Of a stretch of 64,000 bases of DNA, positions 36,901-53,946 are shown in pieces (positions within the stretch are counted from its first letter, which is position 1; the number at the start of each line of letters is the position of its first letter). A model generated the notes under the pieces. It made no database searches. It saw nothing but the letters and a program-made list of their open reading frames with translations, and had not been told where the DNA came from. The stretch lies in NCBI RefSeq assembly GCF_009758015.1, contig NZ_WSEL01000003.1, positions 1 to 64,000 on the forward strand, given 5' to 3'. The position numbers and the translations under genes were made by a program. The stretch is from Ramlibacter pinisoli (lineage in GTDB: Bacteria > Pseudomonadota > Gammaproteobacteria > Burkholderiales > Burkholderiaceae_C).

Positions 36901-36902
36901 CG

Positions 36903-37936: not shown

Positions 37937-38036
37937 CTTCGGTTTTCTCTGAGCTCGACGCAGGATTCTTCTGCTTTTTTCTTCGGCTTCCAGCCGCTAC
38001 CTTGTACCGTTCGATCATCTCCCTGGAGACTCTTCC

Positions 38037-38996
38037 ATGAAAAAAGCACTGGCCCTCTTCGCCGTCGCCCTGACAGTGGGCCTGTCGACGCTGTCCATCG
38101 ACGCGGAAGCCGCCCGCCGGCTGGGCGGTGGAAAGTCCACCGGCATGCAGCGCCAGGCGACCCCGCCCCAGTCGGCGCCGGCCCAGACCCCGCCGGCGAA
38201 CAACGCACAAGGCGCGCCGTCCCAGGCCGCACCGGCTGCCGGCGCCGCTGCGACGGCACCCGCGGCCGCGGCCCCGCGCCGCAGCTGGATGGGCCCGATC
38301 GCCGGCCTGGCCGCAGGCTTGGGCCTGGCCGCCCTCGCCTCGCACTTCGGGTTCGGCGAGGCGCTGGCCAACATGATGATGATCGGCCTGCTCGTCATGG
38401 GCGTGCTGCTGGTCATCGGCTTCGTGATGCGCAAGCGCGCGGCCCAGGGTGCCGCACTGGCCGGTGCCGGCGGCGGGGCCGGCCCGTTCCAGCGCCAGCA
38501 GCCCGCATCCATCCTGGAGCGCAACACGCAGGACGAGACCCCGCAAGGCGGCTCGCTGATCGGCTCGCGCCTCGGTGGCGGCATCGGCAACGCGGTCGCG
38601 GCGGGCCAGCCGGCCAGCATCCCGGCCGGTTTCGATGCGGTCGGCTTCGCGGCCAATGCCAAGGGCCAGTTCATGGCGCTGCAGGCCGCGAACGATGCAG
38701 GTGACCTCGCCAGCCTGCGCGAGTTCCTCACGCCCGAGATGTTCGCCCTCGTCCAGGCCGACATCGCCGAGCGCGGCCAGGCGCCGCAGCGCACCGAGGT
38801 GTACGGCCTCGACGCCCGCGTGCTGGCGGTGGCCGAGGAGGAGAGCCGCTACGTCGCCAGCGTGCGCTTCACCGGCAGCGTGCGCGACGAGCCCGGTTCG
38901 CCCACCGAGGACCTGGACGAGACCTGGCACCTGACCAAGCCGCGCGCCGGCCTGGGCGGCTGGGTGATCGCGGGGATCCAGCAGAACGCGGCCTGA
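38037..38996 (+). CDS. Tim44-like domain protein
   Basis: 319 residues. Signal-like N-terminus, an Ala/Pro/Gln low-complexity stretch (about 35-82), two hydrophobic helices (about 84-102 and 112-130), then a C-terminal Tim44-like domain. That domain starts at FDAVGFAANAKGQFMALQAA and includes DLASLREFLTPEMFALVQAD and DLDETWHLTKP. Widespread in Betaproteobacteria; role unproven, thought to be envelope-associated. ATG 38037 has GGAG 9 nt upstream. Confidence 0.85.
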   Translation: MKKALALFAVALTVGLSTLSIDAEAARRLGGGKSTGMQRQATPPQSAPAQTPPANNAQGAPSQAAPAAGAAATAPAAAAPRRSWMGPIAGLAAGLGLAALASHFGFGEALANMMMIGLLVMGVLLVIGFVMRKRAAQGAALAGAGGGAGPFQRQQPASILERNTQDETPQGGSLIGSRLGGGIGNAVAAGQPASIPAGFDAVGFAANAKGQFMALQAANDAGDLASLREFLTPEMFALVQADIAERGQAPQRTEVYGLDARVLAVAEEESRYVASVRFTGSVRDEPGSPTEDLDETWHLTKPRAGLGGWVIAGIQQNAA

Positions 38997-39048
38997 CGCG
39001 CCTCGTCCCCCACCGTGTGCCCTCCTCCCGGAGGGCACACTCGCTTGC

Positions 39049-39945
39049 ATGGCCGCCCCGCTCAACTACCGCCACCTCTACTATTTCTGGGTCGTCGCCA
39101 AGGAAGGCGGCATGGCACGCGCCGCCGCCCGCCTCGACATGGCGGTGCAGACCGTCAGCGCGCAGGTGAAGTCGCTCGAGCAGTCCCTGGGCCACGCGCT
39201 GTTCAAGCCCGCCGGGCGGGGCATGGCGCTCACCGAGGCCGGCACCGTCGCCCTGGCCCACGCGGAACAGATCTTCCAGCTGGGCGAGCAGCTGCCCGAT
39301 GCGGTGCGCGAGGCCGCCACCGGCCAGGGCCTGCGGCTGGCGGTGGGCATCTCCGATGCGCTGCCCAAGCTGGTGGTGCGCCACCTGCTGCAGCCCGCGC
39401 TCGACGAGCACGTGCGCCTGCTCTGCCACGAGGACGAATTCGACCGCCTGCTGGGCGACCTCGCCCTGCACCGGCTCGACGCCGTGCTGTCGGACCGGGC
39501 GGCGCCCCCCAATCCCAACCTGCGGCTGTACAGCCATGCCCTGGGCGAGGCGGTGCTGGACTGGTGGGCGCCGGTGGCCATGGCCCGGGCGGCCCGGCAG
39601 CCGTTCCCGGCCTCATTGGCCGACATGCCGCTGCTGTTGCCCACCGGGCAGTCGGCGGTGCGCACGCGCCTGGACCAGTGGTTCGAGCGCCAGAACCTGC
39701 GCCCGCGCGTGGCCGGCGAGTTCGAAGACAGCGCGCTGCTGGCGGCGTTCGGCCGCAGCGGCCTGGGCGCCTTCCCGGCGTCGAGCTGGTCGCGCGACGA
39801 GCTGTCCACGGACCGCGGCCTGCAGCGGCTGGGCGACACGCCCGAACTGGTCGAGCAGTTCTTCCTGATCTCGGCCGAGCGGCGCATCCAGCACCCGCTG
39901 GTGCAGCGCCTGCTGCCCGCACCGCAGAAACAGGTCGCACGCTGA
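39049..39945 (+). CDS. nhaR: LysR-type regulator of the NhaR type
   Basis: 298 residues. The N-terminal helix-turn-helix NYRHLYYFWVVAKEGGMARA followed by QTVSAQVKSLEQSLG is typical of NhaR, where HLYYFW is a signature. The C-terminal part keeps the NhaR features GISDALPKLVVRHLL, LLPTGQSAVRTRLDQWF, GEFEDSALLAAFG and AERRIQHPLVQRL. E. coli NhaR activates nhaA under sodium stress and pgaABCD. No nhaA gene is nearby, so the target here is unknown. Confidence 0.75.
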   Translation: MAAPLNYRHLYYFWVVAKEGGMARAAARLDMAVQTVSAQVKSLEQSLGHALFKPAGRGMALTEAGTVALAHAEQIFQLGEQLPDAVREAATGQGLRLAVGISDALPKLVVRHLLQPALDEHVRLLCHEDEFDRLLGDLALHRLDAVLSDRAAPPNPNLRLYSHALGEAVLDWWAPVAMARAARQPFPASLADMPLLLPTGQSAVRTRLDQWFERQNLRPRVAGEFEDSALLAAFGRSGLGAFPASSWSRDELSTDRGLQRLGDTPELVEQFFLISAERRIQHPLVQRLLPAPQKQVAR

Positions 39946-40063
39946 GGCCGCCGAAAGCCGTCTGCCGCCGCGCGCACGACGACTGACGGTCCGGCCCGCC
40001 CGCGCATGCCGCGGGCTTCGATTTCCGGTGCGTTCGCGCACCTCGAGTGCCTCCCCCGGTGCC

Positions 40064-40069
40064 TAGATT
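40064..40069 (+). promoter_or_regulatory. TAGATT -10-like element before the small secreted protein gene
   Basis: TAGATT 67 nt upstream of the start at 40136, same form as the other TAGAxT elements; no clear -35. Confidence 0.3.
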
Positions 40070-40135
40070 GCGTTCGTCGAGACAGCAACGCCCGCCGCCC
40101 CGACGCCGTCATCAACCCTTCCGAAAGGCACCGCC

Positions 40136-40573
40136 ATGAACTCGATCCGCTTCACAGTCGCCGCCGTCCTCGCCGCTGCCGCCGCCCTCGCGGTTGCCCT
40201 CGGCAGGCCCGCCCATGCCGGCACCACCATCCCCATCGAGGGTGGCGGCGCCACCGGCATCACCCTCGTCGACATGTCCGTCAACGGCGGCGGCGCCCCG
40301 CGCAGCCGCGCCGACGTTGCCGCCGAGGCCCGCGCCACCTGGCGCCAGATGAACTCGCGCAGCGGCCAACAGACCGATGCCGAAGAGCACCTGCACGTCC
40401 GCGCGACCAGCACGCGCAGCCGCGACGACGTGCGCCGCGAAGCCTTCGCCTTCTCGCGCCAGGCCCACCCGGACGTCTTCGAAGGCGGCCAGAGCGGAAT
40501 GATGACGACGATGCACGCGCGCCTGCCGGCACGCAGCGCCCCCGCCCAGATGGCCGCCAGCACCGCCGACTGA
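40136..40573 (+). CDS. Small secreted hypothetical protein (DUF4148-like repeats)
   Basis: 145 residues. Signal peptide cleaved near HAGTT (about residue 29). The mature part contains two related helical segments, RSRADVAAEARATWRQM and RSRDDVRREAFAFSRQAH, resembling the V..E...A units of DUF4148 proteins common in Burkholderiales periplasms. Function unknown. Converges on the DyP-patatin gene. Confidence 0.6.
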   Translation: MNSIRFTVAAVLAAAAALAVALGRPAHAGTTIPIEGGGATGITLVDMSVNGGGAPRSRADVAAEARATWRQMNSRSGQQTDAEEHLHVRATSTRSRDDVRREAFAFSRQAHPDVFEGGQSGMMTTMHARLPARSAPAQMAASTAD

Positions 40574-40614
40574 GCCGGCGCGCCGGGCGCACGACGCGCC
40601 CGGTGCCGCCACCG

Positions 40615-43600
40615 CTAGGTCGGGTGGCGGATGCGCAGGCTGGACCGCGGCACGGCCCGGTAGGGTTCGCTGTCGCCGGCCTGCAGGAAGGTCTGTTCCA
40701 GGTCGCACAGGGCCGCCAGCAACGCTTGCAGTTCCGCGGCCTGCCCGGGCTCCAGCGGGGTCTCGGAAGGCAGGCTGCGGCTGCGGCGCCCTGGCTTGCT
40801 CAGCGGCGCCTTGGTCTTCGCGGCTTCGATCTGGTCGAGCAGCGGCACCGCATGCCGGTTCATCCGGGCCGCCACGCCGAAGTTGCGGATGCGCTCGCGC
40901 ACCGAAACCAGCAGGCAGTTGAGCCGCACCCAGCGGTGCTCCTGCCAGCCGACGGACTGGAACTTCTCGATGAACGCCCGCGCCGCCGGCGTGCCGTAGG
41001 TCGTGCCCAGCCGGCGGATCCGGTCGGGTGGCATGCGGATGTTGACGCCGCCCTCGCCCTCGGTCAGGTACAGCCGCACCACGCGGTCGCGCACGCCGGG
41101 CATGCGCATCATGGTGCTGTCGTTCCAGCGCCAGGTCGTGCGCCACAGGCTGCCGAGGAAGCCGGCCAGTTGCCAGGGCCGGGTCTCGGGCCCATGGTCC
41201 CAGGTGTCGGCACGGCCGCTGGTGTGGAAGGCCGGCAGCCGCACGGCCTCCCGGTTGTTCTCGTCGCGCGTCTCGAGCGAGATGCCGAAGGTCGGCCACA
41301 TCGGCAGGAAGCTGTCGAACAGGTGGATGGGGAAGTTCGAGCACAGCCCGCCGTCGGACATCCAGCAGCGGCCCATGCGCCGGGCGCCGTGCTCCACGGC
41401 GTACAGCGGCACGGCCGAGATCAGCAGGGGGAAGCTCATCGCCAGGCGGGCCGCCACCACGATCGGCAGGTCGGCCACCGGCAGTTCGAGGAAGCCGGGA
41501 CGCACCGTGTCGGCCGGCGGGTCGGCCTCGCTGCGCGCCGCGTAGGGGTTGGACAGCGCCGCCAGGTACTGCACCAGCCCGCGTGGGAAGTAGTTCTCCA
41601 GTTCCTCGACGCGGAAGAACAGCCGGCCCATGTCCTCGGTCTCGTCGAGCGGAAACCGGTACGGCCGCCCATGCGCCAGGTTGCTGGCATAGACCTCCAG
41701 GTTGATCGAGCGCGCCCCGGTGCCGTGCACCTCGAAGCCGAGCGCCTTGTCGGCGGCGCCCGGTGCATCCCAGAGATCGCGGAAGGTCAGCGGCTTGTCG
41801 TGCAGGCCGCGCCCGGCCACCGCCTGGATGGCGTAGTGCAGGAAGGCGGCCAGGTCGGGCGAGTCGACCGGCGCCTCGGGGTCCCAGCCGCGGCAGAGGC
41901 CAAAGCCGTTGCGCACCAGGCCGCGGTGCACGTCCCAGCAGATCCCGGCGACCAGCGCGGCGAACGCGCCCGTGCCCAGCGCCAGCAACGCGGCGGCGGT
42001 CCAGGAGACCAGCGGCCACAGGCAAGGCGCCGCGGCCGGGCCCGACCAGCACTGCAGCGCCGTCTGGATGGGCCCGGCCAGCACGATGGCGGCCAGCACG
42101 ATCGTGAGGCCGGCGACCAGACGGCGGTACTGCCACAGCGCCGCGGCCAGCCCATGCACGACCTGCGACACCGGCCCGCTGCGCTCCAGCGTGGCGAGGA
42201 AGATGCCGAACAGCCGGCGCGTGGAATGCTGCGGCACGAACACCCGCTCGAGCCGCGTGCGGCCGTCCTCCTCGCGGGCCAGCTCCTGCGGCAGTTTCGC
42301 CAGCCGGTCGAAGCCGTCGCCCGAGCCGTGCCGGCGCCGGTATTCCGCCGCCGCCGCCAGCGCCGCGGCGAAAGCGCCGATGGAGCTGCCGCCGATGCTG
42401 CGGAAGCGGTAGTGGCGCGCCAGTTCGACCACCGCCGATGCGTAGATGACGCCGCTGGTGATGCCGCCCTCCATCACGAGGTCGCAGAAGCGGTCGTTCG
42501 GTGCGTCGATCGGCTCGGGCCCGGGCCCTGCATCCGGCACGGTCGACGGCTGGTGCGCCGGGCGGGCCGCGTGGGCGTGCGTCGGATTCCGCAGGGTCGC
42601 GCCGGCGGCGAGGGTCTCCAGCGCCCGTCGGCTGGGGAACAGCGCATACAGGGTGCCGCGCGTGCGCACGAAAGCCTCGAAGCCGTCCAGCGCGATCTGC
42701 CGGCCGCCGGGCAGCGGGATGAGGAACTGCGCCTGCGGCTCGTCGTGGCGGCCCACCAGCGGGTCCTTGGCCCGGCCGCGGTTGGGCGGGCCCATGGGGT
42801 TCTTCTCCAGCCACTCGGACACCAGGTGCTCGAACTGGTCGTCGATGCGGGCACAGAAGAACAGGCCGAACAGGCCGACCTCGTCGTCGCCCACCGCACC
42901 GTACGGGATGCCGCGCCGGAACAGCGTGCGGTCGCGCTGGGGCATCAGCGGATCGGTGCGCGGATTGGCGCGCCGCATGTGGGCGCCGAACGGGCAGCCC
43001 AGCCCCTCGCGGTCCTGCTCGAAGTCGACCTGCGCGAGGCGCGCGGCGTCCGGCGCGGGCGGCTCCTCGGTCTCCCCGGGCAGCACCGGCGCGCCATTGG
43101 GCCAGCGCCCGACCATCTTGGCCTTCAGCCAAGTCGGCGTGACGAATGCGTGGCCGGCCGCCCGCAGCTCGGCGGCCTTCCCGTCCAGGTAGCGCTGCAG
43201 CCGGCACTCGTGCTGCTCGAGCTTGCGCAGGACGCCGAAGCTGCCATGGCGCAGGAAATGCGCCACGTCGTCCGGCGTCTTCCCGGCGGTCCACAGGTCG
43301 GCGCCGTCGTTGTTTGGATAGCCGAGCAGCAGCTCGCCCGGCCGGGGCCGGAACGCCTGCCCGTCCGGCCCGGGGCGGCCCAGCAGGCGCTGGCGGTCGA
43401 GGATGCTGGGCCGCGTGATGCCGTCGCGCAGGCCGAAGTGCACGCGGGTGGCCCGGGGATCCTGGTCGTCGCGCAGCTGCTGGCCGTCGGGCAGGGCCGC
43501 AGCCGGCTCCCAGCCCGCGAGCCCGTCGGCGCCGCGCAGCTGTCGCAGCCGGCGCACCGCTTCGTCGAGCGTGGCGGCGTCGTTGCCGTGGATGGCGATC

Positions 43601-43995
43601 CAGGCATGTGCCCGGTCGTGGTGGAACACCGCATCCCAGCGCTCGGCCGCGCTCTCGCCGGCATCGCCCAGGTGGCGCGCCGCGCGCACGTCGGCGCCCT
43701 CGGCGAACGCCGGCGACTTGTCCCTGAACGCGACCAGCACCGACGCCGGCGCGCCGAGCGCGCGCAGGCCCTGGTGGGTGAAGCCGATGTTGATGCCGCA
43801 GTCGAGGCCGCGGGCCGTGCCCCGGGCGCCGAACGCGAGCAGCTGCGCATCGAGCAGGTTGGCGAGGAACTTCCGCGCACGGGCGGCATCGGTCACGGCC
43901 AGCAGCAGCGTGCGCATGCGGGGCGCGTTGTAGCCCGTCAGCGCCAGGCGCTGCACCTCCTTCTCCAGGAGCGCGTCGACGGCGTCGTGCGTCAT
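40615..43995 (-). CDS. DyP-type haem peroxidase fused to a membrane-embedded patatin-like phospholipase
   Basis: 1126 residues. Part 1 (about 1-470) is a DyP peroxidase: catalytic Asp in FGLRDGITRP (D191), proximal haem ligand H339 in CPFGAHMRRANPR, distal arginine in LFRRGIPYG (R360/361), then GLFGLFFCARIDDQFEHL. Part 2 (from about 500) is a patatin lipase: oxyanion loop MEGGITSG, nucleophile S538 in GGSSIG, catalytic Asp D881 in SDGG. Two hydrophobic helices (about 627-643 and 662-686) interrupt the patatin core and should anchor it in the membrane. All catalytic residues of both halves are present. The start ATG 43995 overlaps the stop of the P450-like gene (ATGA). The reading frame remains open upstream to 48711, but that stretch opposes no function and shadows the next two genes. 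The fusion suggests hydrolysis of a membrane lipid and oxidation of the product by one polypeptide; that is inference. Confidence 0.9.
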   Translation of the reverse strand: MTHDAVDALLEKEVQRLALTGYNAPRMRTLLLAVTDAARARKFLANLLDAQLLAFGARGTARGLDCGINIGFTHQGLRALGAPASVLVAFRDKSPAFAEGADVRAARHLGDAGESAAERWDAVFHHDRAHAWIAIHGNDAATLDEAVRRLRQLRGADGLAGWEPAAALPDGQQLRDDQDPRATRVHFGLRDGITRPSILDRQRLLGRPGPDGQAFRPRPGELLLGYPNNDGADLWTAGKTPDDVAHFLRHGSFGVLRKLEQHECRLQRYLDGKAAELRAAGHAFVTPTWLKAKMVGRWPNGAPVLPGETEEPPAPDAARLAQVDFEQDREGLGCPFGAHMRRANPRTDPLMPQRDRTLFRRGIPYGAVGDDEVGLFGLFFCARIDDQFEHLVSEWLEKNPMGPPNRGRAKDPLVGRHDEPQAQFLIPLPGGRQIALDGFEAFVRTRGTLYALFPSRRALETLAAGATLRNPTHAHAARPAHQPSTVPDAGPGPEPIDAPNDRFCDLVMEGGITSGVIYASAVVELARHYRFRSIGGSSIGAFAAALAAAAEYRRRHGSGDGFDRLAKLPQELAREEDGRTRLERVFVPQHSTRRLFGIFLATLERSGPVSQVVHGLAAALWQYRRLVAGLTIVLAAIVLAGPIQTALQCWSGPAAAPCLWPLVSWTAAALLALGTGAFAALVAGICWDVHRGLVRNGFGLCRGWDPEAPVDSPDLAAFLHYAIQAVAGRGLHDKPLTFRDLWDAPGAADKALGFEVHGTGARSINLEVYASNLAHGRPYRFPLDETEDMGRLFFRVEELENYFPRGLVQYLAALSNPYAARSEADPPADTVRPGFLELPVADLPIVVAARLAMSFPLLISAVPLYAVEHGARRMGRCWMSDGGLCSNFPIHLFDSFLPMWPTFGISLETRDENNREAVRLPAFHTSGRADTWDHGPETRPWQLAGFLGSLWRTTWRWNDSTMMRMPGVRDRVVRLYLTEGEGGVNIRMPPDRIRRLGTTYGTPAARAFIEKFQSVGWQEHRWVRLNCLLVSVRERIRNFGVAARMNRHAVPLLDQIEAAKTKAPLSKPGRRSRSLPSETPLEPGQAAELQALLAALCDLEQTFLQAGDSEPYRAVPRSSLRIRHPT

Positions 43996-45752
43996 GGGGT
44001 GTCCAGGCCTTCGCGCAGGATGCTGGCCACGCCGACCCGCGGGTAGGCGCTGTAGAAGTAGCCGCCCACCGGCTCGCGGTTGTACTTGCGGATGACGTCG
44101 ACGAACTCCTTGGGGTGCAGCCGGATCGGCGTGGGCGGCGCATCCTCGAGGTAGCGGAACTGCTCGTCGAACAGCGGCACCTTGAGCGCGAAGTGCTCGA
44201 CGTAGGCATCGAAGTCGCCGTCGTACACCGTGTACATGGCCAGGTGGGTCTCGTTCTCGACCAGCCCGAACCAGGCGAAGTGCACGTTCTGCGCGTCCTG
44301 CAGTGCGCGTTCCACCACGGGGGCGCCGGCGCGGGTCAGGACCTTGAGCTTCTGCGCGTTCTCGCGCACCGGCGCCTTGATGGGCAGGACGACGAACAGG
44401 GGTTGCTGGTTGAGCAGGCGGTCGCGCTGGAATCGCAGTGGGAAGCTCTCGCAGATCGCGCCCCAGCGCTTGACCAGCGGACGCGGCAGGTGCGTGGCCG
44501 GGTCGATGTCCAGCGCCAGGCCCGGCAAGGCGAGCACCTGGCGCAGCGTGGCATGCACCAGGGGCAGCGCCAGGTGGCGGCCGACGCAGTTGTGCGGCAG
44601 GCGCGGGTCGTCGACGGCGCCGCCGAACAGCGCGTCCAGGTTGGCCGGCGGCTGCGCGCCGATCGCCAACAGCAGGTGCGCACCGGCCGGAACCAGGAGG
44701 TCGGGGCCGCGCCCCGGGTGGCGCAACTGCAGGGGCTTGACCGCCGTGCGGGCCAGGAACGGGGCCGGCGGCCGGCGTCGCAGGGCATCGTCGACCATCT
44801 GCTCCAGCGTCCCGACGTCGCCGTGCCGCGCCGCATGCGTCGCTTGGTCGATGAGCCTCGCGTCCGATGCGTCGGTCGCATGGAAGAAGTGGTCGACGGT
44901 GTTCGCGATGGCCGCCGTGACGTTGCCGACGGTGCCGGCCATCAGCCCGAGCGCCACGGTGCGGGTGTCGCCCGCGTCCTCCCCCAGCGCACCGGCCAGC
45001 CGGGCGCTGCAGGTGCCCTCGTGGTCGATCACGCCCTCGTCCCACCACTCCTGCGGATCCTCCACGCCGATGGCCCGGTCCACGTGTTCTTCCAGCCGGG
45101 CCTTGAGGTCCAGCGCGGCGTCCGACCCGGAGGGCGGCAGGCCGTCGTCCGGCACGAAGTGGCGCCCGATGATCTGGAAGGTGAGCCGCGTGTAGGTGGC
45201 CCGCAGCGCCCGCTCCAGCAGGACATGCGACTTCGCCGGCAGGCCGAACACCACCGCGACCAGCCGCAGGGCCGCCTGCTCGGCCACGTCGGTCACCAGG
45301 TCGAACTGGTGGTGCTTGCGCGGCAGCACCAGGGCCCGGTCGATGGCCGCCGTGACGCAGGCTTCGATGGTGGCGGGATCGAGATCCAGGGCGTCGAGGG
45401 CGGCCCGGCGCTGCCGGGCGTGCGGGCAGTCCGGCCGCCCGTCCAGGTCGTCCTGGCCCAGCATGAAGCGCCCGCCGCTGTCCAGGGCCGCGTAGGGCGC
45501 GACGCTGCCGGCTGCCAGCGCCGCCTCGACGTGTTCGCGTGCCGTCAGCAGGTACACGTCCTCGCTCGGCCAATGCGCGGTCCCCCCGGTGCGCAGCACG
45601 CTCTTGAAAACCAGCGGCGGAAAGCCCTCGACCGCCAGCTCGCGGTACAGCAGCGCGCGCTTGCGGTCGTTGCGCAGGGTCTCGAACAGCTTGCGGTTCT
45701 GCCGCAGGGGGTCGGCCTGCATCCGGATGCTGGCCAGCCTGGAGTGTTCCAT
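43992..45752 (-). CDS. P450-like haem-thiolate protein with extra C-terminal domain
   Basis: 586 residues. Residues about 1-430 follow a cytochrome P450 layout. The K-helix is DALRRRPPAPFLART (DxxR in place of ExxR, 322-325). The haem loop is LPHNCVGRHLALPLVHATL with ligand C389 but without the usual FGxG lead. The I-helix MAGTVGNVTAA (271-281) lacks the acid-threonine pair used for O2 activation. Those departures are shared with P450s that rearrange or use peroxides. Residues about 450-586 are an added domain of alternating strands and helices (HFAWFGLVENETHLAMYTVY), perhaps a dimeric alpha-beta barrel. No membrane anchor. It lies 45 nt after the cyclase/STAND gene and overlaps the DyP-patatin gene. 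A hydroperoxide-using reaction on lipid is a plausible inference. Confidence 0.75.
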   Translation of the reverse strand: MEHSRLASIRMQADPLRQNRKLFETLRNDRKRALLYRELAVEGFPPLVFKSVLRTGGTAHWPSEDVYLLTAREHVEAALAAGSVAPYAALDSGGRFMLGQDDLDGRPDCPHARQRRAALDALDLDPATIEACVTAAIDRALVLPRKHHQFDLVTDVAEQAALRLVAVVFGLPAKSHVLLERALRATYTRLTFQIIGRHFVPDDGLPPSGSDAALDLKARLEEHVDRAIGVEDPQEWWDEGVIDHEGTCSARLAGALGEDAGDTRTVALGLMAGTVGNVTAAIANTVDHFFHATDASDARLIDQATHAARHGDVGTLEQMVDDALRRRPPAPFLARTAVKPLQLRHPGRGPDLLVPAGAHLLLAIGAQPPANLDALFGGAVDDPRLPHNCVGRHLALPLVHATLRQVLALPGLALDIDPATHLPRPLVKRWGAICESFPLRFQRDRLLNQQPLFVVLPIKAPVRENAQKLKVLTRAGAPVVERALQDAQNVHFAWFGLVENETHLAMYTVYDGDFDAYVEHFALKVPLFDEQFRYLEDAPPTPIRLHPKEFVDVIRKYNREPVGGYFYSAYPRVGVASILREGLDTP

Positions 45753-45797
45753 CGCTCCCTCCCGTGCGGCCCGGCCGGCCGCGTTGTGTGAGACGAC

Positions 45798-48700
45798 TTA
45801 CGCAGGCGCGCGCAGCGCCGCCAGGCGGGCCATCGCCCAGTCGACGTCGCGCGTGCCGATTCCCCCTTCGACCGCCTGGCGGGCCGGTGCCAGGATGGCC
45901 AGTGCTTCCTCGGGCCTCCCCTGCCCTTCCCGCAGGTCGGCCAGGTCCAGTGCCGCCCGCAGCGCCAGCGAGGCAAGCCGGCGCGCCTGGGCACAGGCCT
46001 GCGCCTGCAGCAGCCACCTCTCGGCTTCGCCGGCGCGGTCCAGCCCGGCCCGCAGCGCGCTCTGCAAGGTCAGCCGCCCGGTGAGCCGGCGGATCTCGGC
46101 CTCGTAGTAGCGCTCGCCGGTGCGCTCGACGATCGCCAGCGCCTGCTCCAGCAGGGCGAGGCCGGCCTCCGGCCGCTGGTCGAGCGCGTGGCCCTCGGCG
46201 CGCATGGTCAGGTAGAACGGCGTGGTCACCACGGCGCCCGAATCGGACCAGGCCTCGAAGCCTTGCCGCATCTCCTCGACACCCGCCGCCACGTCGCCCA
46301 GGTCGGCGGCAATGCGGCCGCGCATCACGCGCGCGTGGGCCAGCCAGACCGCGAAACCGTTCTCCTCGCAGACCCGGATGGCGCGCTCGGCCGCGTCCAG
46401 CGCGGCGCGGTTCTCGCCGCGGAAGTGCAGCACCGCGGCACGGAAGCCGTCCGCCACGCCGATGCTGAAGCGGTGCCCGATCTCCTGCGCATGCGCCGAC
46501 ACGGCCAGCACGCGGCGCCTGGCCTCGTCGGGACGGCCCAGCTGCCAGAGGGACCAGGCCGAGTAGCACAGGCACATGACGCCGGGGTCCTGCACCGCCT
46601 CGGGCCGGTGCTCCAGGCGCAGGTAGTCGGCATGGCAGGCGTCCATCTCCTGCACCGCCTCCAGCATCTGGCCCTGGTGCATCCGGATGTTGGCCAGGGC
46701 CCACCGGGACTGCACGCGCTGGATGGGGCCGCCGCTGCCGCTGCCGGCCCGGGCCGCGGCGTCCAGCACGTAGGAGCGTGCCTTGGCGAAGTCGGCGCGC
46801 ATGAAATGGAAGCCCTCCAGGCCCAGCAGCACGCGCATGGCGGCGCTCTCGTCGCCGAGCAGACGCGCCAGTTCCATCGCCCGGGCATAGGCGCGCTCGA
46901 CCCGTTCGGAGCCGTAGCCGCGGGTGGCGATCAGGCGCGCAGCCAGCAGCAGTTGCAGGCGCAGTTCGAGCCGTGCGCGGTCCTCGCCGGCCGGCATGCG
47001 TGCCAGCACGGCGAGGGCGCGGTCCGCATGGGCGATGGCCTCGGCATGGGCGGAGCGCGACGCGGCCCGGCGCACCGCCGCCTCCCAGAACCGCAGCGCC
47101 TCGGCGTCCAGGCCGGCTTCGGTGTAGTGGTCGGCCAGCAGTTCGGGCTGGCGCTCGGCGAGGTCGGCAAAACGCTCGCGGATCACGCCGGCGATGACCT
47201 GGTGCAGGCGCAGCCGGTCGCGCTCGAGCAGCGAGCCGTAGGCGGCATCGCGCATCAGCGCATGGCGGAACGCGTAGCGCGGACCGTCGCCGTCGCGGCG
47301 GGCCAGCAGCATGCCGGCACGCACGAGCTCTGCCAGCGCCGCCGCCGGGGCCGCCACGGCGATGGGAGAGCCGGGGTGCTGCAGCACGGCCTCGAGCAGC
47401 GCGAGCGGGAACTCGCGCCCGATCGTGCCGCCCACCTGCGCCACCTGCTTGGACGCACCCAACCGGTCGAGGCGGGCCGTCAGCAGGTCCAGCACCGTGG
47501 CGGGCACGGCCCGGGCACCGGTCGGCGGAACGTCCCCGCTCGCCTCGGTCTCGAGCGCCATGCGCGTGGACTCCTCGATGAACAGCGGCACCCCGTCGGC
47601 GCGCTCGGCGATCAGCTGCACCACCTCGCCGGGCAGCCGGCGGCCGCCGCTCGCGCCCCGCACCATGGCCCGCGCCAGCTCGGGCGCAAGGCCCTGCAAC
47701 TCGGTCTCGTAGGCCGGAAACCGCGGGCGCCAGCGCAGCTCGGCGTCCGGCCGGGCCGTGACGACGATCAGCAGCGGCAGGGCGCGCGTGACCGCCGCCA
47801 GCCGGTCGAGGAATTCGGCGGAGGAGGGATCGAGCCAGTGCGTGTCCTCGACGATGAGGCAGGCCGGCGCATGCTGCGCGCGCTGCCGGGCCAGCCCCAC
47901 CAGCAGGTCCAGCGTGAGTTCGCGCCGGCGCTGCGCCGGCTGCTCCAGGATGGGATGCGGCGTGGGCAGCGGCAGCGCCAGCAGGTCGGCGAGAAGCGCC
48001 AGCGCGCCCTCCCCGGCCGTGTCGACGCGCGACACCACGGTGCGCAGGCGCGCCAGGCCGGCCTCGGGCAGCTCGTTGCCGCCCAGGCGCAGCTGGTGGC
48101 GCAGCGAGCCGATCAGCGGCTGGAAGGCGCTGTTGGCGTGCTCGGGCGCACAGCGGCACTCGAACACCTGGCCGTCGTCGGCCAGGGCCTGCTTGAACTC
48201 GCGCAGCAGCCGCGACTTGCCGATGCCCGCTTCGCCCAGGATGCGCACGATGCGCAGCGAGCCGGCCTTGACCACCGCCCAGTGCGCCTGCAGGGTCTGC
48301 AGCTCGTCGCGGCGGCCGACGAAGGGCGTGATCGACGGCTGACCGGCCGCGGCCGGGAGCGGCGTGGCTGCGGCCGGCGCCGCGCCGAGCAGCCGGTGGC
48401 AGGCTTGCGGCCCGTCGAAGCCCTTGAGCCCGATGGCGTCGTCCAGCGCCTCGAAGCGGAAGCGGTCCCGGACGATGCGCCGCGTCGACTCGCCCACCAC
48501 GACGGTGGCCGGCGCCGCGAGCGCCTGCAGGCGGGCCGCCAGGTGGATGGCCGAGCCCACCGGCTGGCCGTCGCGCACCACCACCTGCCCCGTGCACACG
48601 CCGATGCGCACGCCCAGCCCGAGCGCCTGCATGGCATCGACCAGTTCCAGGGCGGCTTGCAGGGCCTGCGCCGCTGCGTCCTCCCGCGCCACCGGGGTGC

Positions 48701-49919
48701 CGAAGTAGCACATGGCGCCATCGTCACCCTGGAAGTCGTCGGGCGTGCCGCCGTGCCGGCGCACGATGTCGACGCAGGCCTGGTGGTAGCGCGACAGCAG
48801 GTCGCTATAGGTCTCGGCGCCCAGTTCGCCCAGCAGGCGCGTCGAGCCGGCCAGGTCGATCGACAGGATGGTCACCTGGCGCAGGTTGTCCTCGACCGAG
48901 GCACGGCGGTCGCACAGGACCACGGCGCCGTCGCCGTACAGCTCGGCCCGCAGGGCCGCCAGCGCGGTGGGCCCTGCCGTGCGCCGGAACGCGCCGCGCG
49001 ACGACCGCAGGGCTTCGGCGAGCGGCGCGCCGCGGGCCAGCGCGGCATACAGGGGCAGCAGGAAATCAGCGGCCTGCCCGGCGCCGGCCGGCTCGCAGGA
49101 CAGGAGGTTCAGTCCGTGCCGGCAGGCATCGAGCGCCACCGCGCGGTTCGGCGGCTGCGCCGAATCCGTGCCGGGGACCGTGTTCTGCGACAGCAGCAAC
49201 GGCGGCGGTGACGCCAGCCGGCCGATCGAGCCGATGTCCAGCGGTTCGCCCTCCCACCACCAGAGCACGGAGTCGTCCGGCGCCGGCCGGCCGTCGACCG
49301 GGCCGGCGAAATGGACGATGTCGTTGGCGCCGATCAGCCGCAGCAGGTCGTCACGCGGCAGGTCGTTCGAGGAGACGACGCTGACCGCGACGCCGGCCAT
49401 GCTGCGCAGCCCGGCATTGAGGCGCGACGCGGTCGCAGCAGCCGCACCGCCGCCGGCGACCAGCAGCACTTTCAGGGTGCCGCGCGTGGGGGCCGGTGGC
49501 GCCGCCCGCGCGGCCTCCATGCCGGCCACGATGCGGCGCGCCAGGCGGAACTTCTCGCCGAGGAAGTCCTGGCCGTCCCAGGCCAGCTCCCAGGGCACCC
49601 AGGCCAGCGACCGGTCGAGCTGCAGCGTCAGTGCGCCGGGCGCTGCCTCGCGCAGGAAGGTGGCGATGCCGGGCGGGATGAGCCGGTCCAGCAGCTGGCG
49701 GCCGAACGCCCGCAGGTCGCTGCTGGCATCCGCGGTGGAAGGCGCTTCGGTGTCCAGCCACCGCCCCGACTGCACCTGCAGGTCGAGCAGGATGGCTTCG
49801 GCGGTGTCGATGGTCTCCAGCCTGGCCAGCGGACCGAGGTCGGTCAGCACGGCCGCCAACCCGCCGCGTTGGGGCAGCACGGTCAGGTGCAGTGGCGGGC
49901 CTTCAGTCGGCGGGGACAT
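45798..49919 (-). CDS. Degenerate CHAT domain + class III nucleotide cyclase + STAND ATPase + TPR-like repeats
   Basis: 1373 residues, cytoplasmic. Residues about 1-335 form a CHAT-like (caspase-fold) domain (LDRSLAWVPWELAWDGQDFL, DIVHFAG). The usual GHG histidine is replaced (GPVDG) and the LSACET cysteine is replaced (LLSQNT), so it is probably not a protease. About 346-510 is a class III cyclase domain: metal aspartates D355 (SIDLAGST) and D399/D400 (QGDDG) are present, and the N..R motif reads AIHLAARLQ with R463. About 530-950 is an AAA/STAND NTPase (Walker A GEAGIGKS 562-569, Walker B LIVEDTHWLD). The rest is TPR-like helical repeats. This layout is that of large signal-integrating regulators. 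First gene of the three-gene unit. Nucleotide product (cAMP or cGMP, if any) cannot be decided. Confidence 0.88.
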   Translation of the reverse strand: MSPPTEGPPLHLTVLPQRGGLAAVLTDLGPLARLETIDTAEAILLDLQVQSGRWLDTEAPSTADASSDLRAFGRQLLDRLIPPGIATFLREAAPGALTLQLDRSLAWVPWELAWDGQDFLGEKFRLARRIVAGMEAARAAPPAPTRGTLKVLLVAGGGAAAATASRLNAGLRSMAGVAVSVVSSNDLPRDDLLRLIGANDIVHFAGPVDGRPAPDDSVLWWWEGEPLDIGSIGRLASPPPLLLSQNTVPGTDSAQPPNRAVALDACRHGLNLLSCEPAGAGQAADFLLPLYAALARGAPLAEALRSSRGAFRRTAGPTALAALRAELYGDGAVVLCDRRASVEDNLRQVTILSIDLAGSTRLLGELGAETYSDLLSRYHQACVDIVRRHGGTPDDFQGDDGAMCYFGTPVAREDAAAQALQAALELVDAMQALGLGVRIGVCTGQVVVRDGQPVGSAIHLAARLQALAAPATVVVGESTRRIVRDRFRFEALDDAIGLKGFDGPQACHRLLGAAPAAATPLPAAAGQPSITPFVGRRDELQTLQAHWAVVKAGSLRIVRILGEAGIGKSRLLREFKQALADDGQVFECRCAPEHANSAFQPLIGSLRHQLRLGGNELPEAGLARLRTVVSRVDTAGEGALALLADLLALPLPTPHPILEQPAQRRRELTLDLLVGLARQRAQHAPACLIVEDTHWLDPSSAEFLDRLAAVTRALPLLIVVTARPDAELRWRPRFPAYETELQGLAPELARAMVRGASGGRRLPGEVVQLIAERADGVPLFIEESTRMALETEASGDVPPTGARAVPATVLDLLTARLDRLGASKQVAQVGGTIGREFPLALLEAVLQHPGSPIAVAAPAAALAELVRAGMLLARRDGDGPRYAFRHALMRDAAYGSLLERDRLRLHQVIAGVIRERFADLAERQPELLADHYTEAGLDAEALRFWEAAVRRAASRSAHAEAIAHADRALAVLARMPAGEDRARLELRLQLLLAARLIATRGYGSERVERAYARAMELARLLGDESAAMRVLLGLEGFHFMRADFAKARSYVLDAAARAGSGSGGPIQRVQSRWALANIRMHQGQMLEAVQEMDACHADYLRLEHRPEAVQDPGVMCLCYSAWSLWQLGRPDEARRRVLAVSAHAQEIGHRFSIGVADGFRAAVLHFRGENRAALDAAERAIRVCEENGFAVWLAHARVMRGRIAADLGDVAAGVEEMRQGFEAWSDSGAVVTTPFYLTMRAEGHALDQRPEAGLALLEQALAIVERTGERYYEAEIRRLTGRLTLQSALRAGLDRAGEAERWLLQAQACAQARRLASLALRAALDLADLREGQGRPEEALAILAPARQAVEGGIGTRDVDWAMARLAALRAPA

Positions 49920-50173
49920 GGTCGTCCGTCGATCGTGGTGGGACCATCGCGCGGGAAGTCATGTCGTTGGCGTCCTCGGACGTCCGCATGATCTGCACGG
50001 GTCCCGCGCGCTGTCAATGACTGAATGCCGTGGCGTTGGGCCTGCGTCCCCGATGGGTTACCGCCAGCTCAGCAGGCCACGCGCCCCTCGCGCAGGCGCT
50101 CCATGCGCACAATCGCGCCAGGCGCTGCGCGGGCCACCCTCCGCGCCCTGCACGCCTGATCGCAGGGGAAGCC
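49920..50173. promoter_or_regulatory. Divergent control region between the cyclase/STAND and CRP-like genes
   Basis: 254 nt separating divergent starts, so promoters for both directions should lie here. No TGTGA-N6-TCACA CRP site was found by eye. An imperfect GGGACC/GGGTCCC pair occurs at about 49940 and 50009. Any operator remains undefined. Confidence 0.45.
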
Positions 50174-50881
50174 ATGTCCGCACCGATGCCGCCTTCCAGC
50201 CTGGGGCTGCGCACCCTCGAGCTGCTCCAGGGCCTGCCGCCACAGCGCCTCGACGAGATCTCGCGCCAGTGCCTGTGGCGCCGGTTCGAGCCGGGCCAGC
50301 TGCTCATCGCGCGCGAGCACGACGACCGCGACCTGCACCTGATCGTGGCCGGGGCCGTGCGCGTCACCAGCTATGCGCCGGGCGGGCGCGAAACGAGTTT
50401 CCGCGATCTGCAGGCCGGCATGTCGTTCGGCGAGCTGTCCGCGCTGGACGGGCGGCCGCGATCCGCCGACGTCATCGGTCTGCGCTCCGGGCTCATCGCC
50501 TCCCTGCCACCGGCGGCCTTCCGCGCACTGCTGCAGCAGGAGTGGACCGTGACCGAGCGGGTGCTGCTGCGACTGACCGACCTGGCCCGCAGCCTGATCG
50601 ACCGCGTGCTGGACCTCAGCACGCTGAGCGTGCAACAGCGCGTGTGCCTGGAGCTCCTGCGCCTGGCGCAAGCGGCCGGCGTCGACGGCAACCAGGCCCG
50701 CATCGAGCCGGCGCCCAAGCACGCCGACCTGGCGCACCTGGTCAGCAGCTACCGCGAGCAGGTCACGCGCGAGCTGTCCGCCCTGGCCAAGGCGGGCGTC
50801 GTGGCCCGGCAGGACGGCGCCCTGGTGGTGCGCGACCTCGAGCGCCTGAAGCACATCGCGAACCGGGAGGTGGCGCACTGA
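50174..50881 (+). CDS. CRP/FNR-family cyclic-nucleotide-responsive regulator
   Basis: 235 residues from ATG 50174. N-terminal cNMP-binding beta-roll with the phosphate-binding cassette FGELSALDGRPRSADV, in which the Glu, Arg and Ser equivalent to CRP E72, R82 and S83 are all present. A dimerisation helix follows (VTERVLLRLTDLARSLIDRV), then a C-terminal winged helix (KHADLAHLVSSYREQVTREL). There are no FNR-type cysteines. The intact cassette argues for true cyclic-nucleotide binding, unlike many CRP/FNR members. Divergent from a gene that contains a class III cyclase domain, so the pair may form a local second-messenger loop. Confidence 0.88.
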   Translation: MSAPMPPSSLGLRTLELLQGLPPQRLDEISRQCLWRRFEPGQLLIAREHDDRDLHLIVAGAVRVTSYAPGGRETSFRDLQAGMSFGELSALDGRPRSADVIGLRSGLIASLPPAAFRALLQQEWTVTERVLLRLTDLARSLIDRVLDLSTLSVQQRVCLELLRLAQAAGVDGNQARIEPAPKHADLAHLVSSYREQVTRELSALAKAGVVARQDGALVVRDLERLKHIANREVAH

Positions 50882-50918
50882 GGCGCTGAAGGGCCCCTGA
50901 TCAGGCTCCACACCAACT

Positions 50919-51133
50919 GTCGTCATGCCGGATTTGATTCGGCTCCCGCGTCCTGGCCGTGGGTGATGGGACGGGTCTGATCAGGTATCGGAGATGGATT
51001 GCGGGTCGAGCCCGCAATGACGGGGGTGCGGTGAAGGCTGGCGCACTCCAGGAATTCCGCGGTGCCACCACAACCTGAATTTCCCGGTGCCACCACAACC
51101 GTCGTCATGCCGGACTCGATCCGGCATCCATCC
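50919..51133. repeat. Dispersed palindromic repeat cluster
   Basis: A decayed ATGCCGG core (50919-50942), an inverted ATTGCGGG-type core with GGAGATGG tail (50989-51021) and a direct ATGCCGG core (51101-51133). Between them a ~27-bp unit containing GGTGCCACCACAAC is repeated twice (about 51052-51103). Confidence 0.75.
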
Positions 51134-51226
51134 CCCGTCCACGGCGACGGGGCTACGCCCTATGATCGCGCGCCACCGCCGCCGGCCTCGGCGCGGCGCA
51201 TCCCCCGCCAGTGCCGGCGGCCCCGC

Positions 51227-51946
51227 ATGTCCGATTCCCTCACCCTCCTCTACCTCGACGCCGACCTGGTCGCCATCGACAAGCCGGCCGGCCTGCTCGT
51301 CCATCCGAGCGCGCTCGACGCGCACGAGGAGCGCACCGCGCTGCGCACCCTGGAGGCCCAGCTGGGCGAGCGCCTGTTCCCCCTGCACCGGCTCGACAAG
51401 GCCACCAGCGGCGTGCTGCTGTTCGCGCGCTCGCGCACGGCGGCCAGCCACTGGCGGATGGCGTTCGAGGCCGGCACGGTGGCCAAGCGCTACGTGGCCC
51501 TGGTGCGCGGCTGGCCGCCCGCTGGCGGCGAGATCGACTACCCGCTGGCCCGCGACCCGGAGCTGCCCTCGGCCGGCCAGGAGCGCCTGCCGGCCGTCAC
51601 GCGCTACGAGCGCCAGGCCTGCTTCGAATGGCCGTTCGCCGTCGACGGCCGCCACCCCACCAGCCGCTACGCACTGGTCGAGGTGACGCCGCTCACCGGG
51701 CGCCGCCACCAGATCCGGCGCCACTTCAAGCAGCTGGCGCATCCGGTGGTGGGCGACAGCACGCACGGCAAGGGCGCCCACAACCGCGCCGTCGCCGCCT
51801 GGCTGGGGGTGCAGCGGCTGTGGCTGCACGCGGCCTGCGTCGACTTCCCCCGGGGGCCGCGCATCGAGGCACCATGCGGGCCGGAGTGGAATGTCCTACG
51901 CGAGTCCGCCGCGATGGATCACAGACCGGGGCCGGGCCTTGGCTAG
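51227..51946 (+). CDS. truC: RluA-family pseudouridine synthase, TruC-like
   Basis: 239 residues from ATG 51227. Catalytic aspartate in the RluA motif HRLDKATSGVLLFA (about residue 64). KPAGLLVHPSA near the N-terminus and TPLTGRRHQIRRHFKQLAHP near 150 are strongly conserved, and SDSLTLLYLDADLVAIDKPA begins as in TruC. TruC makes pseudouridine 65 in tRNAs; the short length without an S4 domain fits TruC rather than RluD/RluC. Its TAG stop forms part of the -10-like TAGATT for the next small gene. Confidence 0.85.
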   Translation: MSDSLTLLYLDADLVAIDKPAGLLVHPSALDAHEERTALRTLEAQLGERLFPLHRLDKATSGVLLFARSRTAASHWRMAFEAGTVAKRYVALVRGWPPAGGEIDYPLARDPELPSAGQERLPAVTRYERQACFEWPFAVDGRHPTSRYALVEVTPLTGRRHQIRRHFKQLAHPVVGDSTHGKGAHNRAVAAWLGVQRLWLHAACVDFPRGPRIEAPCGPEWNVLRESAAMDHRPGPGLG

Positions 51947-51949
51947 ATT
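51944..51949 (+). promoter_or_regulatory. TAGATT -10-like element overlapping the truC stop
   Basis: TAGATT 41 nt before the small basic protein gene at 51990; its TAG is the truC stop codon. Confidence 0.35.
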
Positions 51950-51989
51950 GCAGGTGCAGCCGGATGGTCTGGCTGTCGGAAGGACCACC

Positions 51990-52157
51990 ATGCCCCAATC
52001 GACCAAAGACTCCCCGGGCGGGAAGACCCACGCGAAGAAGAAGGGCGCCGCCAAGCCCGCGGTGTCCGACAAGGCCGTCGCCAAGAAGCCGAGCCGCTCC
52101 AGCACGTCGCCCACGGGCCCGAGCAAGCACAGCGAGAAGAAGAGCACGCCGCACTGA
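51990..52157 (+). CDS. Small lysine-rich basic protein
   Basis: 55 residues from ATG 51990 (GGAAGGA about 6 nt upstream). Roughly a quarter lysine, with Ser/Thr/Pro/Ala and repeated AKK/KKP units, so disordered and strongly basic. It resembles the tails of bacterial H1-like proteins. DNA or RNA binding is plausible but unproven. Confidence 0.5.
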   Translation: MPQSTKDSPGGKTHAKKKGAAKPAVSDKAVAKKPSRSSTSPTGPSKHSEKKSTPH

Positions 52158-52377
52158 GTGCCCCGGTGCCGAAAGGCCGGCTCCAAGGCCGAGCCAGCGG
52201 CCGGCCGGCGAGGACGAATGCACGGATCGCGCGGCACCGTCAGATTCCCGCAAGCCGCTGCCCAAGAAAGTGGCACCGCGTGCCAGCCCAATGCCGGCGC
52301 GGCTCGGCGGGGCGCTCCACAAGCTTGTCCACACCCTTCTCCACGCTTGCCGTGGACAGACGGCCCGCCGGCGTGTG

Positions 52378-53253
52378 CTAGGGACGCCGGCGGTAGGCCG
52401 CGGCCACCATGTCGGCCAGCCGCCGCGCCGCCTCGCCCAGGCCCTGCACGGGCCGGTGCACCAGTCCGATGTCGCGGTGGAAGGTGCGCTCGCCCAGGTC
52501 GATCGCGCGCACGCCCGACGGCCAGCGCCGCTGGGCCACCGTCTGGGGCAGCAGGGCGACGCCGGCGCCGTGGGCCACCAGTTGCACGATGGCCTCGAGT
52601 TCGTCGAGTTCGCACACTTCCCGCACCTCGATGTGCGCTGCCCGCAGGAAGCGGTCGACCTGGCGGCCGCCATACGAGGCGCGGTCGTAGCGGATGAACG
52701 GCCGGGTGGCGAGCAGCCCGGCCCAGTCGTTGCCGCGCACCCCGCGCGGCACCACCAGCCGGAATGGCTCATGCGCCAGCGTGGTCCAGCGCAGGTCGCT
52801 CTGGACCGAGAACGGCGGCCGGATGACGACGGCCAGGTCGATCTCGCCGGCGTCGACGAGGTCCACCAACTGCATCGACACCCCGGGCACGACGCGCGTG
52901 CGGCAGCCGGGCAGTTGCCGGTGGAACCGGGCCAGCACGCCGGGCAGCACGGACCGCTGCACCGAGGCGATGGCGCCGACGTTAACGACGGCCGGGGCCG
53001 CGGCCTGCGGCCGGCGCGCCCCGAGGTTGCCGTAGGCCTGCAGCAGGTCCTGCGCCTGCGCCAGCAGGTCGGTCCCCATCGCGTTGAGGCGGGCGGCCCG
53101 GCCGCTGCGGTCGAACAGCTCGAAGCCCAGCTCTTGCTCGAGCCGCTTCATCTGCGCGCTGACGGCGGCCTGCGTCAGCCCGATCCGGTCGCCGGCGGCC
53201 GCGAACGTGCCTTCCCGCGCGACGGCGACGAAGGTCTTGAGTTCGCGAATCAT
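52378..53253 (-). CDS. LysR-type transcriptional regulator
   Basis: 291 residues. N-terminal winged helix (MIRELKTFVAVAREGTFAAA, then GLTQAAVSAQMKRLEQELG) and a C-terminal periplasmic-binding-protein-like effector domain from about 92 (VNVGAIASVQRSVLPGVLAR). It is divergent from the VOC protein gene with 72 nt between starts, the classical LysR arrangement, so the VOC gene is its likely target. Effector unknown. Confidence 0.9.
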   Translation of the reverse strand: MIRELKTFVAVAREGTFAAAGDRIGLTQAAVSAQMKRLEQELGFELFDRSGRAARLNAMGTDLLAQAQDLLQAYGNLGARRPQAAAPAVVNVGAIASVQRSVLPGVLARFHRQLPGCRTRVVPGVSMQLVDLVDAGEIDLAVVIRPPFSVQSDLRWTTLAHEPFRLVVPRGVRGNDWAGLLATRPFIRYDRASYGGRQVDRFLRAAHIEVREVCELDELEAIVQLVAHGAGVALLPQTVAQRRWPSGVRAIDLGERTFHRDIGLVHRPVQGLGEAARRLADMVAAAYRRRP

Positions 53254-53325
53254 CGATTTCCTTGAGGCTCAGCGCAACGAACCATTGATTTTATTTGTGC
53301 CTTCGACTCGGTAGGATCTGCGCCC
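53254..53325. promoter_or_regulatory. Divergent LysR/VOC control region
   Basis: 72 nt, AT-rich in the middle (CATTGATTTTATTTGTG), between the start codons of the LysR gene and the VOC gene. A LysR operator is expected here, but several T-N11-A placements are possible, so none is assigned. Confidence 0.5.
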
Positions 53326-53769
53326 ATGCAAGCCCCGACCACCAATCCCGCCCCGCTCTCGCCCTTCCACCTCGCGTTTCCGGTGCACGACCTCGCCCTC
53401 GCCCGCCAGTTCTATGGCGAGAAGCTGGGCTGCCCGGAGGGCCGCAGTTCGGACGAGTGGATCGACTTCAACTTCTACGGCCACCAGATCGTGGCCCACC
53501 TGGCGCCCCAGGCAACCGGGACGGCGCAGCGCAACGCGGTCGACGGCCACGGCGTGCCGGTGCGGCACTTCGGCATCGTGCTGCCCATGGCCGAGTGGGA
53601 GGCGCTGGCCCAGCGGCTGAAGGCGCAGGGGACCCGGTTCGTGATCGAGCCCTACATCCGCTTCCAGGGCCAGCCCGGCGAGCAGGCGACGATGTTCTTC
53701 CTCGACCCGTCGGAGAACGCGATCGAAGTCAAGGCGTTCGCCGACATCAACAACCTGTTCGCGAAGTGA
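53326..53769 (+). CDS. VOC-superfamily (glyoxalase/dioxygenase-fold) protein
   Basis: 147 residues. Two beta-alpha-beta-beta-beta modules. Metal-ligand positions are visible as H in [18 protein letters not shown] in VRHFGIVLP, and E in [15 protein letters not shown]. That is the H/H/E pattern of VOC metalloenzymes. The [10 protein letters not shown] ending is typical of glyoxalase-like proteins. Probable target of the divergent LysR regulator. Substrate not predictable. Confidence 0.88.
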
Positions 53770-53796
53770 CGGCGGCGGACGCCCTGTTCACGCTCC

Positions 53797-53941: not shown

Positions 53942-53946
53942 CGAAC

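Follow-up and report, generated by a model that had tools for sequence, protein, structure and literature searches.

What does a tightly packed set of genes for a nucleotide cyclase, a P450-like protein, a DyP peroxidase and a patatin do in a bacterium? The question was raised by a locus in the first 64,000 nucleotides of contig NZ_WSEL01000003.1 of Ramlibacter pinisoli (this whole stretch is referred to as the window), which belongs to a 5.5-Mb genome (G000). Three genes are packed on the minus strand, with a gap of 45 nt and an overlap of 4 nt between them: gene 1 (45798-49919), an open reading frame of 1373 amino acids for a putative sensor or regulator with CHAT-like, class III cyclase, AAA_16/STAND ATPase and TPR-like parts; P450L (43992-45752), an open reading frame of 586 amino acids assigned by fold and profile comparison as a P450-fold protein with a C-terminal domain that we named DAD (DyP-associated domain); and a gene for a DyP-patatin protein. 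A CRP-family gene is divergent from them. This layout was as described in the original prediction, whose inventory of cyclase/STAND, P450-like, DyP, patatin and CRP parts was also correct, except that two domains had been overlooked, a degenerate CHAT domain with which gene 1 begins and the DAD at the C-terminus of P450L. We propose that the module carries out accessory, signal-controlled lipid oxidation, in which cyclic-nucleotide/STAND regulation would govern the making of an oxylipin-like product. We give this reading a probability of roughly 0.45; its outline is probable and its detail unproved, and the substrates, products, step order and purpose are what we infer from the observations below.

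The three genes form a conserved module

The original prediction had proposed a search for the same neighbourhood across genomes, and this search covered the Ramlibacter genomes G000-G036, 37 in number and not all complete. Seven of the 37 had P450L. The membrane patatin was found in the same seven and in none of the 30 others (E up to 1e-20), and DyP in the same seven plus G020; a second DyP was found in G000 and a second patatin in G023. Outside the genus, the same searches returned a patatin in G046, while in G051 they met a DyP and a weak P450 match. The order gene 1, P450L, DyP, patatin was kept in 7/7 modules, with P450L of locus L012, which gene calling had missed, located by translated search (loci are numbered with the prefix L). 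Identities of the six other P450Ls to that of the window were 61, 57, 52, 36, 35 and 35%. A scan of genome contigs returned one locus; among named records that carry the module, the nearest was R. paludis (NZ_JAKLTM010000008.1, L010; 60% identity). By co-occurrence and order, the three genes are a conserved module, in keeping with the claim that they form a system; the rarity of joint occurrence that was to refute this claim was not seen.

DyP and DAD pair with either a P450 or a catalase-like protein

DAD (43995-44408, minus strand; residues 449-586 of P450L) was studied by structural model and fold comparison. Its predicted structure, with a predicted local distance difference test score of 88.8, may be like the ABM or dimeric alpha+beta barrel, which has a beta-alpha-beta-beta-alpha fold. 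A Pfam scan of 47 DADs returned no family except PF14583 in three (best E 0.031), and DAD is a domain without a Pfam model and not described in the libraries and papers searched. A DyP gene lay within about 1.3 kb of DAD in 40/40 loci picked through DAD, a count to be read with the caution that the DAD profile was seeded mostly from DyP-linked examples. The spread of DAD-marked loci takes in Pseudomonadota, Cyanobacteriota, Actinomycetota and Acidobacteriota, four phyla at the least.

These 40 loci and 3 more gave a set of 43 DAD-DyP loci. A catalase-like gene was present in 17 and a P450 gene in 13, and no locus had both. The probability of zero overlap by chance was 2.8e-4 when loci were taken as independent. 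After collapse to 35 genera, only genus g260 had both partner kinds, in different genomes, and the probability of at most one shared genus was 0.018. The partner profiles were built from locus members, some from one to three seeds, and may miss genes because the seeds were few. At six loci, P450, DAD and DyP were joined in a single open frame of 1410-1544 amino acids (L075, L077, L081 and L141 of genus g267, L082, and L090); for L075 and L082, Pfam bore out the P450 assignment.

The DyP domain of the module (42586-43995, minus strand) was matched by Pfam DyP_N and Dyp_perox_C. Aligned to 8re3, it keeps D191 (in GLRDG), H339 and R360/R361, which correspond to the GxxDG distal Asp, the proximal His and the distal Arg of DyP-type peroxidases. 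DyP with its DAD partner would carry out the first oxidation of a fatty acid in the pathway that we envisage; DyP might instead remove peroxides. A P450 would then process the fatty-acid hydroperoxide, a role that the catalase-like protein may take over elsewhere. Since catalase-like proteins and P450s are swapped beside the same DyP, the hydroperoxide idea is directly testable in many genera.

Some DAD-DyP loci had further features. L092 has a second DAD copy (8438-8738) downstream of DyP, separated from it by a NIPSNAP gene and followed by a DUF4331 gene, and the gene after DyP in the Streptomyces locus L039 looks DUF4331-like by eye. On a Gloeothece plasmid (L038, 1795-9389), DAD-DyP lies beside TOMM/cyanobactin genes (SagB, leader-peptide binding).

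Gene 1 and the CRP-family regulator

Pfam identified AAA_16 (E 1.1e-21), Guanylate_cyc (E 1.8e-7) and CHAT in gene 1, together with weak TPRs. The AAA_16 (STAND-type) ATPase spans residues 532-719 (47763-48326, minus strand). The class III nucleotide cyclase domain (48393-48884, minus strand) carries the metal Asp pair D355/D400 and the transition-state Arg R463 of class III enzymes, all invariant in 7/7 modules. By sequence, its nearest solved chain was the cyclase domain of LipJ (1ybt, E 5.3e-17), and the two have in common a His (H459 in the window) where Asn is usual. LipJ is an active adenylate cyclase.

The CHAT-like domain (48978-49709, minus strand) was assigned by Pfam and compared, by alignment, with CHAT proteins of the ordinary kind from related genomes. 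In the window it is a pseudo-protease, having lost both the His and the Cys columns. Pfam matched CHAT in four closer-lineage members (window, L010, L011 and L012); in the four aligned CHAT parts, the Cys column was kept in 0/4 and the His column only in L012. An active protease was rejected: with the Cys gone from every aligned part and the His from all but one, we read the CHAT part as a dead protease fold. It may serve as a scaffold. The TPR/STAND part would sense a signal and, via ATP, alter assembly, the activity of the cyclase joined to it, or both. The resulting cyclic nucleotide would act on expression through the CRP-family protein, and/or the STAND protein would directly recruit the enzymes.

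The CRP-family gene (50186-50881, plus strand; Pfam) is loosely linked to the module. It carries GELSALDGRPRSA, an instance of the GE...R(S/T)A signature of cyclic-nucleotide sites, found in 8/8 CRP proteins met in the loci. In 3/7 modules (window, L012 and L013) a CRP-family gene is no more than about 1 kb away, against an expectation of 0.02 CRP neighbours per locus for 3 kb on each side and 17-18 HTH_Crp_2 genes per genome (p = 2.7e-4, with loci taken as independent). Within the 43 DAD-DyP loci, a class III cyclase was found at 6/13 of the P450 type versus 2/30 others (p = 0.0055), and a CRP gene at 5/13 versus 0/30 (p = 0.0013). All five CRP-bearing P450 loci are outside the class of the window and in the same phylum, and class III cyclase and CRP recur there. 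Matches to PF00211 per genome ranged from only the locus cyclase (G599 and G600) through 3 (G489) to 28 (G587).

A serious contender, to which we give a little short of an even chance, is that the STAND protein alone regulates the module and that the adjacent CRP gene has nothing to do with it. The enrichment near modules and beside P450-DAD-DyP genes speaks against it. In its favour, 4/7 modules lack an adjacent CRP gene, and relatives of the window CRP protein occur in 22/59 Ramlibacter genomes. Among the 37 genomes tested for both, a CRP relative was found in 14, the module in 7 and both in 5 (p = 0.056), and 9/14 of the CRP-bearing genomes lack the module; in G021, G023 and G029 the CRP relative is on a different contig from the module. 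Four of the five CRP-bearing P450 loci come from one genus, and the link counted by genus is therefore 2/9 (p = 0.06). At L122, L123 and L124, a CRP relative stands beside a small gene that by eye is like the small L012 gene assigned to DUF4148 by Pfam, with no module gene in the stretch. A near-palindrome at 49930-49949, in the 266-bp divergent region, did not stand out from chance. The original view of the CRP gene as a module part is supported by its recurrence with a cyclase in another class and weakened by its adjoining only three modules and by its relatives in genomes without the module.

Lipid genes beside DAD-DyP loci and a possible clean-up role

The neighbours of DAD-DyP genes elsewhere gave independent backing to the lipid theme of the original prediction, with oleate hydratase, thioesterase, patatin and phospholipase D (PLD) beside some loci. 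Oleate hydratase was found near the trio at 4/43 loci (L072, L150, L151 and L152; the catalase-like version), thioesterase also at 4/43 (L095, L150, L151 and L153), and a PLD pair at 1/43 (L032). A hydroxyacyl-CoA dehydrogenase was located near catalase-like-DAD-DyP in L150, L151 and L152, which are alphaproteobacterial plasmids. A GMC oxidoreductase was present near L076 and L079. The genome of the window itself has a second DAD-DyP locus (L091, 9047-11858, on contig C9), where a 337-amino-acid protein without a Pfam match lies between DAD and DyP.

The same neighbours also fit detoxification or catabolism, in which the module would deal with lipid hydroperoxides or with toxic fatty acids from outside and make no signal. 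DyP, P450L and patatin would repair or burn oxidised lipid, and the cyclase/STAND protein would be a stress switch. The trios that adjoin oleate hydratase, hydroxyacyl-CoA dehydrogenase and thioesterase favour this explanation, as does L091, which is without P450, catalase-like, cyclase or CRP genes. A 1373-residue STAND/CHAT/cyclase regulator and a membrane patatin would, however, be heavy equipment for clean-up, and the module is sporadic, being confined to 7/37 genomes. We consider clean-up possible, on the doubtful side.

The membrane patatin and a possible role in defence

The membrane patatin domain (40615-42516, minus strand) carries GSSIG with S538, D881 in DGG, and GGITSG at residue 510. 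The GxSxG and DGG of the patatin dyad were present in the window and in 5/5 relatives examined (L010, L011, L012, L014 and L015; L013 was left out). Transmembrane-like segments are predicted at residues 626-644 and 668-686, with a weaker third at 844-862. By our own gene calls, DyP and patatin are fused in the window and L012 and are two separate genes in the other five relatives. The patatin would liberate an unsaturated fatty acid from phospholipid, probably oleate, vaccenate or palmitoleate in such bacteria.

A search of plasmids with the membrane patatin matched 95 records. Of the three annotated plasmid loci opened, L037 and L040 had defence-like surroundings and L036 did not; a further one, L035, was unannotated. 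In Deinococcus, a patatin of the same subfamily (L037, 7992-9755) adjoins LmuA-like and E1-E2-JAB genes, and in Rhizobium beringeri another (L040, 5986-7683) lies between PtuA-like and IetA/IetS-like genes. No PADLOC model matches the patatins of L037 and L040 themselves. The third annotated locus, on a Tistrella plasmid, had metabolic-looking surroundings.

A role in defence or abortive infection, also raised by the original prediction, would have the STAND protein sense phage or stress, the patatin attack the inner membrane, and DyP and P450L make toxic lipids. We keep it under consideration because patatin relatives sit in defence-like neighbourhoods; the CHAT, STAND and class III cyclase parts and weak matches of PycC profiles to the cyclase (best E 5.1e-9) are consistent with it, and each of the seven Ramlibacter modules has different flanking genes by eye. 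Yet neither DyP-patatin nor P450L was matched by any PADLOC model at E 0.01, and several DAD-DyP relatives lie, like the Tistrella patatin, among metabolic genes. The neighbours of the seven modules look ordinary (by eye, not by a PADLOC scan), and oxidation in several steps looks a slow means of abortive infection. Support for defence is indirect, and the role is unlikely on this balance.

The putative haem pocket of P450L

Returning to lipid oxidation, the P450 fold of P450L (residues 5-444; 44421-45740, minus strand) has the haem Cys, C389, within HxCxG, and an I-helix reading GTVGN277. C389 and HxCxG are invariant in 7/7 Ramlibacter P450Ls. We compared 20 partner P450s, 7 from Ramlibacter and 13 from elsewhere. 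The haem Cys was kept in 20/20 and HxCxG in 11/13 of the others, and the I-helix acid column held D/E in 0/20. At the acid/alcohol positions the Ramlibacter proteins have an invariant G-N, whereas 9/13 others have P-T-N or P-T-T. N277 fell on the alcohol position by two methods, a multiple comparison of the 20 P450s and a profile-profile alignment.

Oliw 2026 (PMC13049297) places Asn at the alcohol position in prostacyclin synthase (ATQGN287) and in plant allene oxide synthase (Asn321), and describes prostacyclin and thromboxane synthases as requiring no electron supply. According to the same paper, fungal enzymes can do without Asn at this site, and HxCxG is present in fungal dioxygenase-P450 fusions. 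As aligned here, Asn277 of P450L resembles the Asn of prostacyclin and plant allene oxide synthases. Lacking the acid for O2 activation and with Asn277 over the haem, P450L would cleave or rearrange a fatty-acid hydroperoxide to the oxylipin-like product. Prostacyclin and allene oxide synthases were absent among the matches listed in the P450L fold comparisons, which is uninformative either way.

A tree of 29 P450s united the seven Ramlibacter proteins with support 100, but did not fix their position firmly, with deeper nodes at 62 and 79. Around nine P450s of the same order that match the P450L profile, neither DAD nor DyP was found in the stretch examined (for L154, a 5.9-kb contig). A plasmid search for P450L gave no match.

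Evidence that weighs against the proposed lipid oxidation

Several observations count against signal-controlled lipid oxidation as proposed here, in addition to the loose CRP link and the seeding of the DAD profile. Neither haem partner was found at 13/43 DAD-DyP loci (two of which, L074 and L146, end at contig edges), and outside Ramlibacter a patatin adjoins DAD-DyP at only 1/43 (L095). The N-terminal part of gene 1 in L013-L015 aligns poorly with the CHAT-like part, and the Pfam CHAT genome search gave no match at the module in G003 and G008 (G023 was outside its sample). The cyclase may be weak or inactive because it does not keep the Lys and Asp with which classical adenylate cyclases read their substrate. 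The tree of 29 P450s does not establish descent of the Ramlibacter P450s from other DyP-linked P450s, and a profile alignment to CYP51 puts the I-helix of P450L in a different register. ExxR is kept in 0/7 Ramlibacter P450Ls versus 13/13 other DAD-linked P450s, and because it is missing in all seven, P450L may have only a loose hold on haem, or none; the acid-alcohol pair of ordinary P450s is likewise absent in 7/7. Haem binding by both oxidases, on which the original prediction depended, is suggested by the conserved DyP haem residues and P450L Cys (7/7) and called into question by the loss of ExxR.

That P450L is a haem-free, P450-derived docking partner for DyP via DAD, like the P450-derived glycosyltransferase activators, is quite improbable, for the lost ExxR, the weak TIGR04515 match (30 bits, cut-off 343) and the lack of a Pfam p450 hit are set against the invariant C389 and HxCxG and against DAD-linked P450s elsewhere that keep both Cys and ExxR in 13/13.

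Comparison with known systems

The fungal Ppo/linoleate diol, allene oxide and epoxy alcohol synthases are like the module in joining a peroxidase-type haem domain to an HxCxG P450. P450L has the HxCxG pocket (7/7) and non-classical substrate recognition site 4 (G-N at acid/alcohol) of the Ppo/linoleate diol synthase group. Relatives of the module also join P450 and DyP in one chain, and N277 appears comparable to the distal Asn of linoleate diol synthase (PMC13049297). However, the first half of the fungal fusions is a peroxidase-cyclooxygenase; the module has DyP and DAD instead, plus patatin, STAND/cyclase and CRP, and Pfam gave no animal haem peroxidase match in the three operon proteins or CRP. 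A catalase-like half coupled with a fatty-acid oxygenase is described (PMC11719350, PMC5617202) for cyanobacterial and coral catalase-lipoxygenase and catalase-haem dioxygenase fusions. The likeness is that catalase-like proteins replace the P450 beside DAD-DyP; the difference is that the window carries the P450 version, with DyP in the oxygenase slot.

The cyclase-AAA-TPR body of gene 1 (residues 342-1328) resembles the TOMM kinase/cyclase model TIGR03903 (E 1.1e-135, 454.2 bits), but the match is under the 705.75-bit cut-off, and a CHAT-like domain stands where the kinase, known from the model name, would be. No TOMM genes were noticed in the window, where no search aimed at them was made. 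Pycsar and CBASS also tie a cyclase sensor to an effector, and CBASS can use a patatin (CapV). The module differs from them in its STAND/CHAT architecture and haem enzymes. PycTIR and PycTM effectors had no match in P450L or DyP-patatin, and the match that the CRP protein gave covers its cyclic-nucleotide-binding part. LipJ (Rv1900c), in which a lipase is joined to the nearest solved cyclase domain with the same His for Asn, has an alpha/beta-hydrolase rather than a patatin in one chain with the cyclase, and is not known to have haem enzymes.

Term counts for 'peroxidase', 'patatin', 'P450' and 'catalase' were zero in the main texts of the Kaur et al. eLife surveys of 2020 and 2021. No paper on this gene set was found in our literature search, which tests absence from print weakly, and the module is apparently undescribed. 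Published precedents cover the two-step logic of a haem oxygenase with a P450 or catalase; they do not cover this assembly.

A bolder proposal, which we regard as rather unlikely, is that DyP and DAD together make up a bacterial fatty-acid oxygenase that has gone unrecognised, in a lipoxygenase/cyclooxygenase-like slot, with catalase-like proteins and P450s as an interchangeable second half. The Ramlibacter module would then be the stimulus-controlled form, in which STAND/cyclase acts through cyclic nucleotide and CRP so that membrane lipids are released and oxidised to an oxylipin that acts as a signal or a toxin; bacteria would thus have their own version of the phospholipase-cyclooxygenase-prostacyclin synthase cascades.

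If the proposed signal-controlled lipid oxidation is true, bacteria would have a signal-gated lipid-mediator pathway with parts unrelated to the eukaryotic ones, and DAD would be a named marker domain for such loci across the phyla listed above. DyP peroxidases, whose natural substrates are to our knowledge largely unknown, would gain a testable natural role.

Other features of the window

Rfam gave no match across positions 36000-55000, and no tRNA was found in the window. At 36544-36975, translated frames show by eye repeated 'VIAGLTRNP...RHDD' stretches, which we take to be of the kind met at dispersed REP-like repeats.

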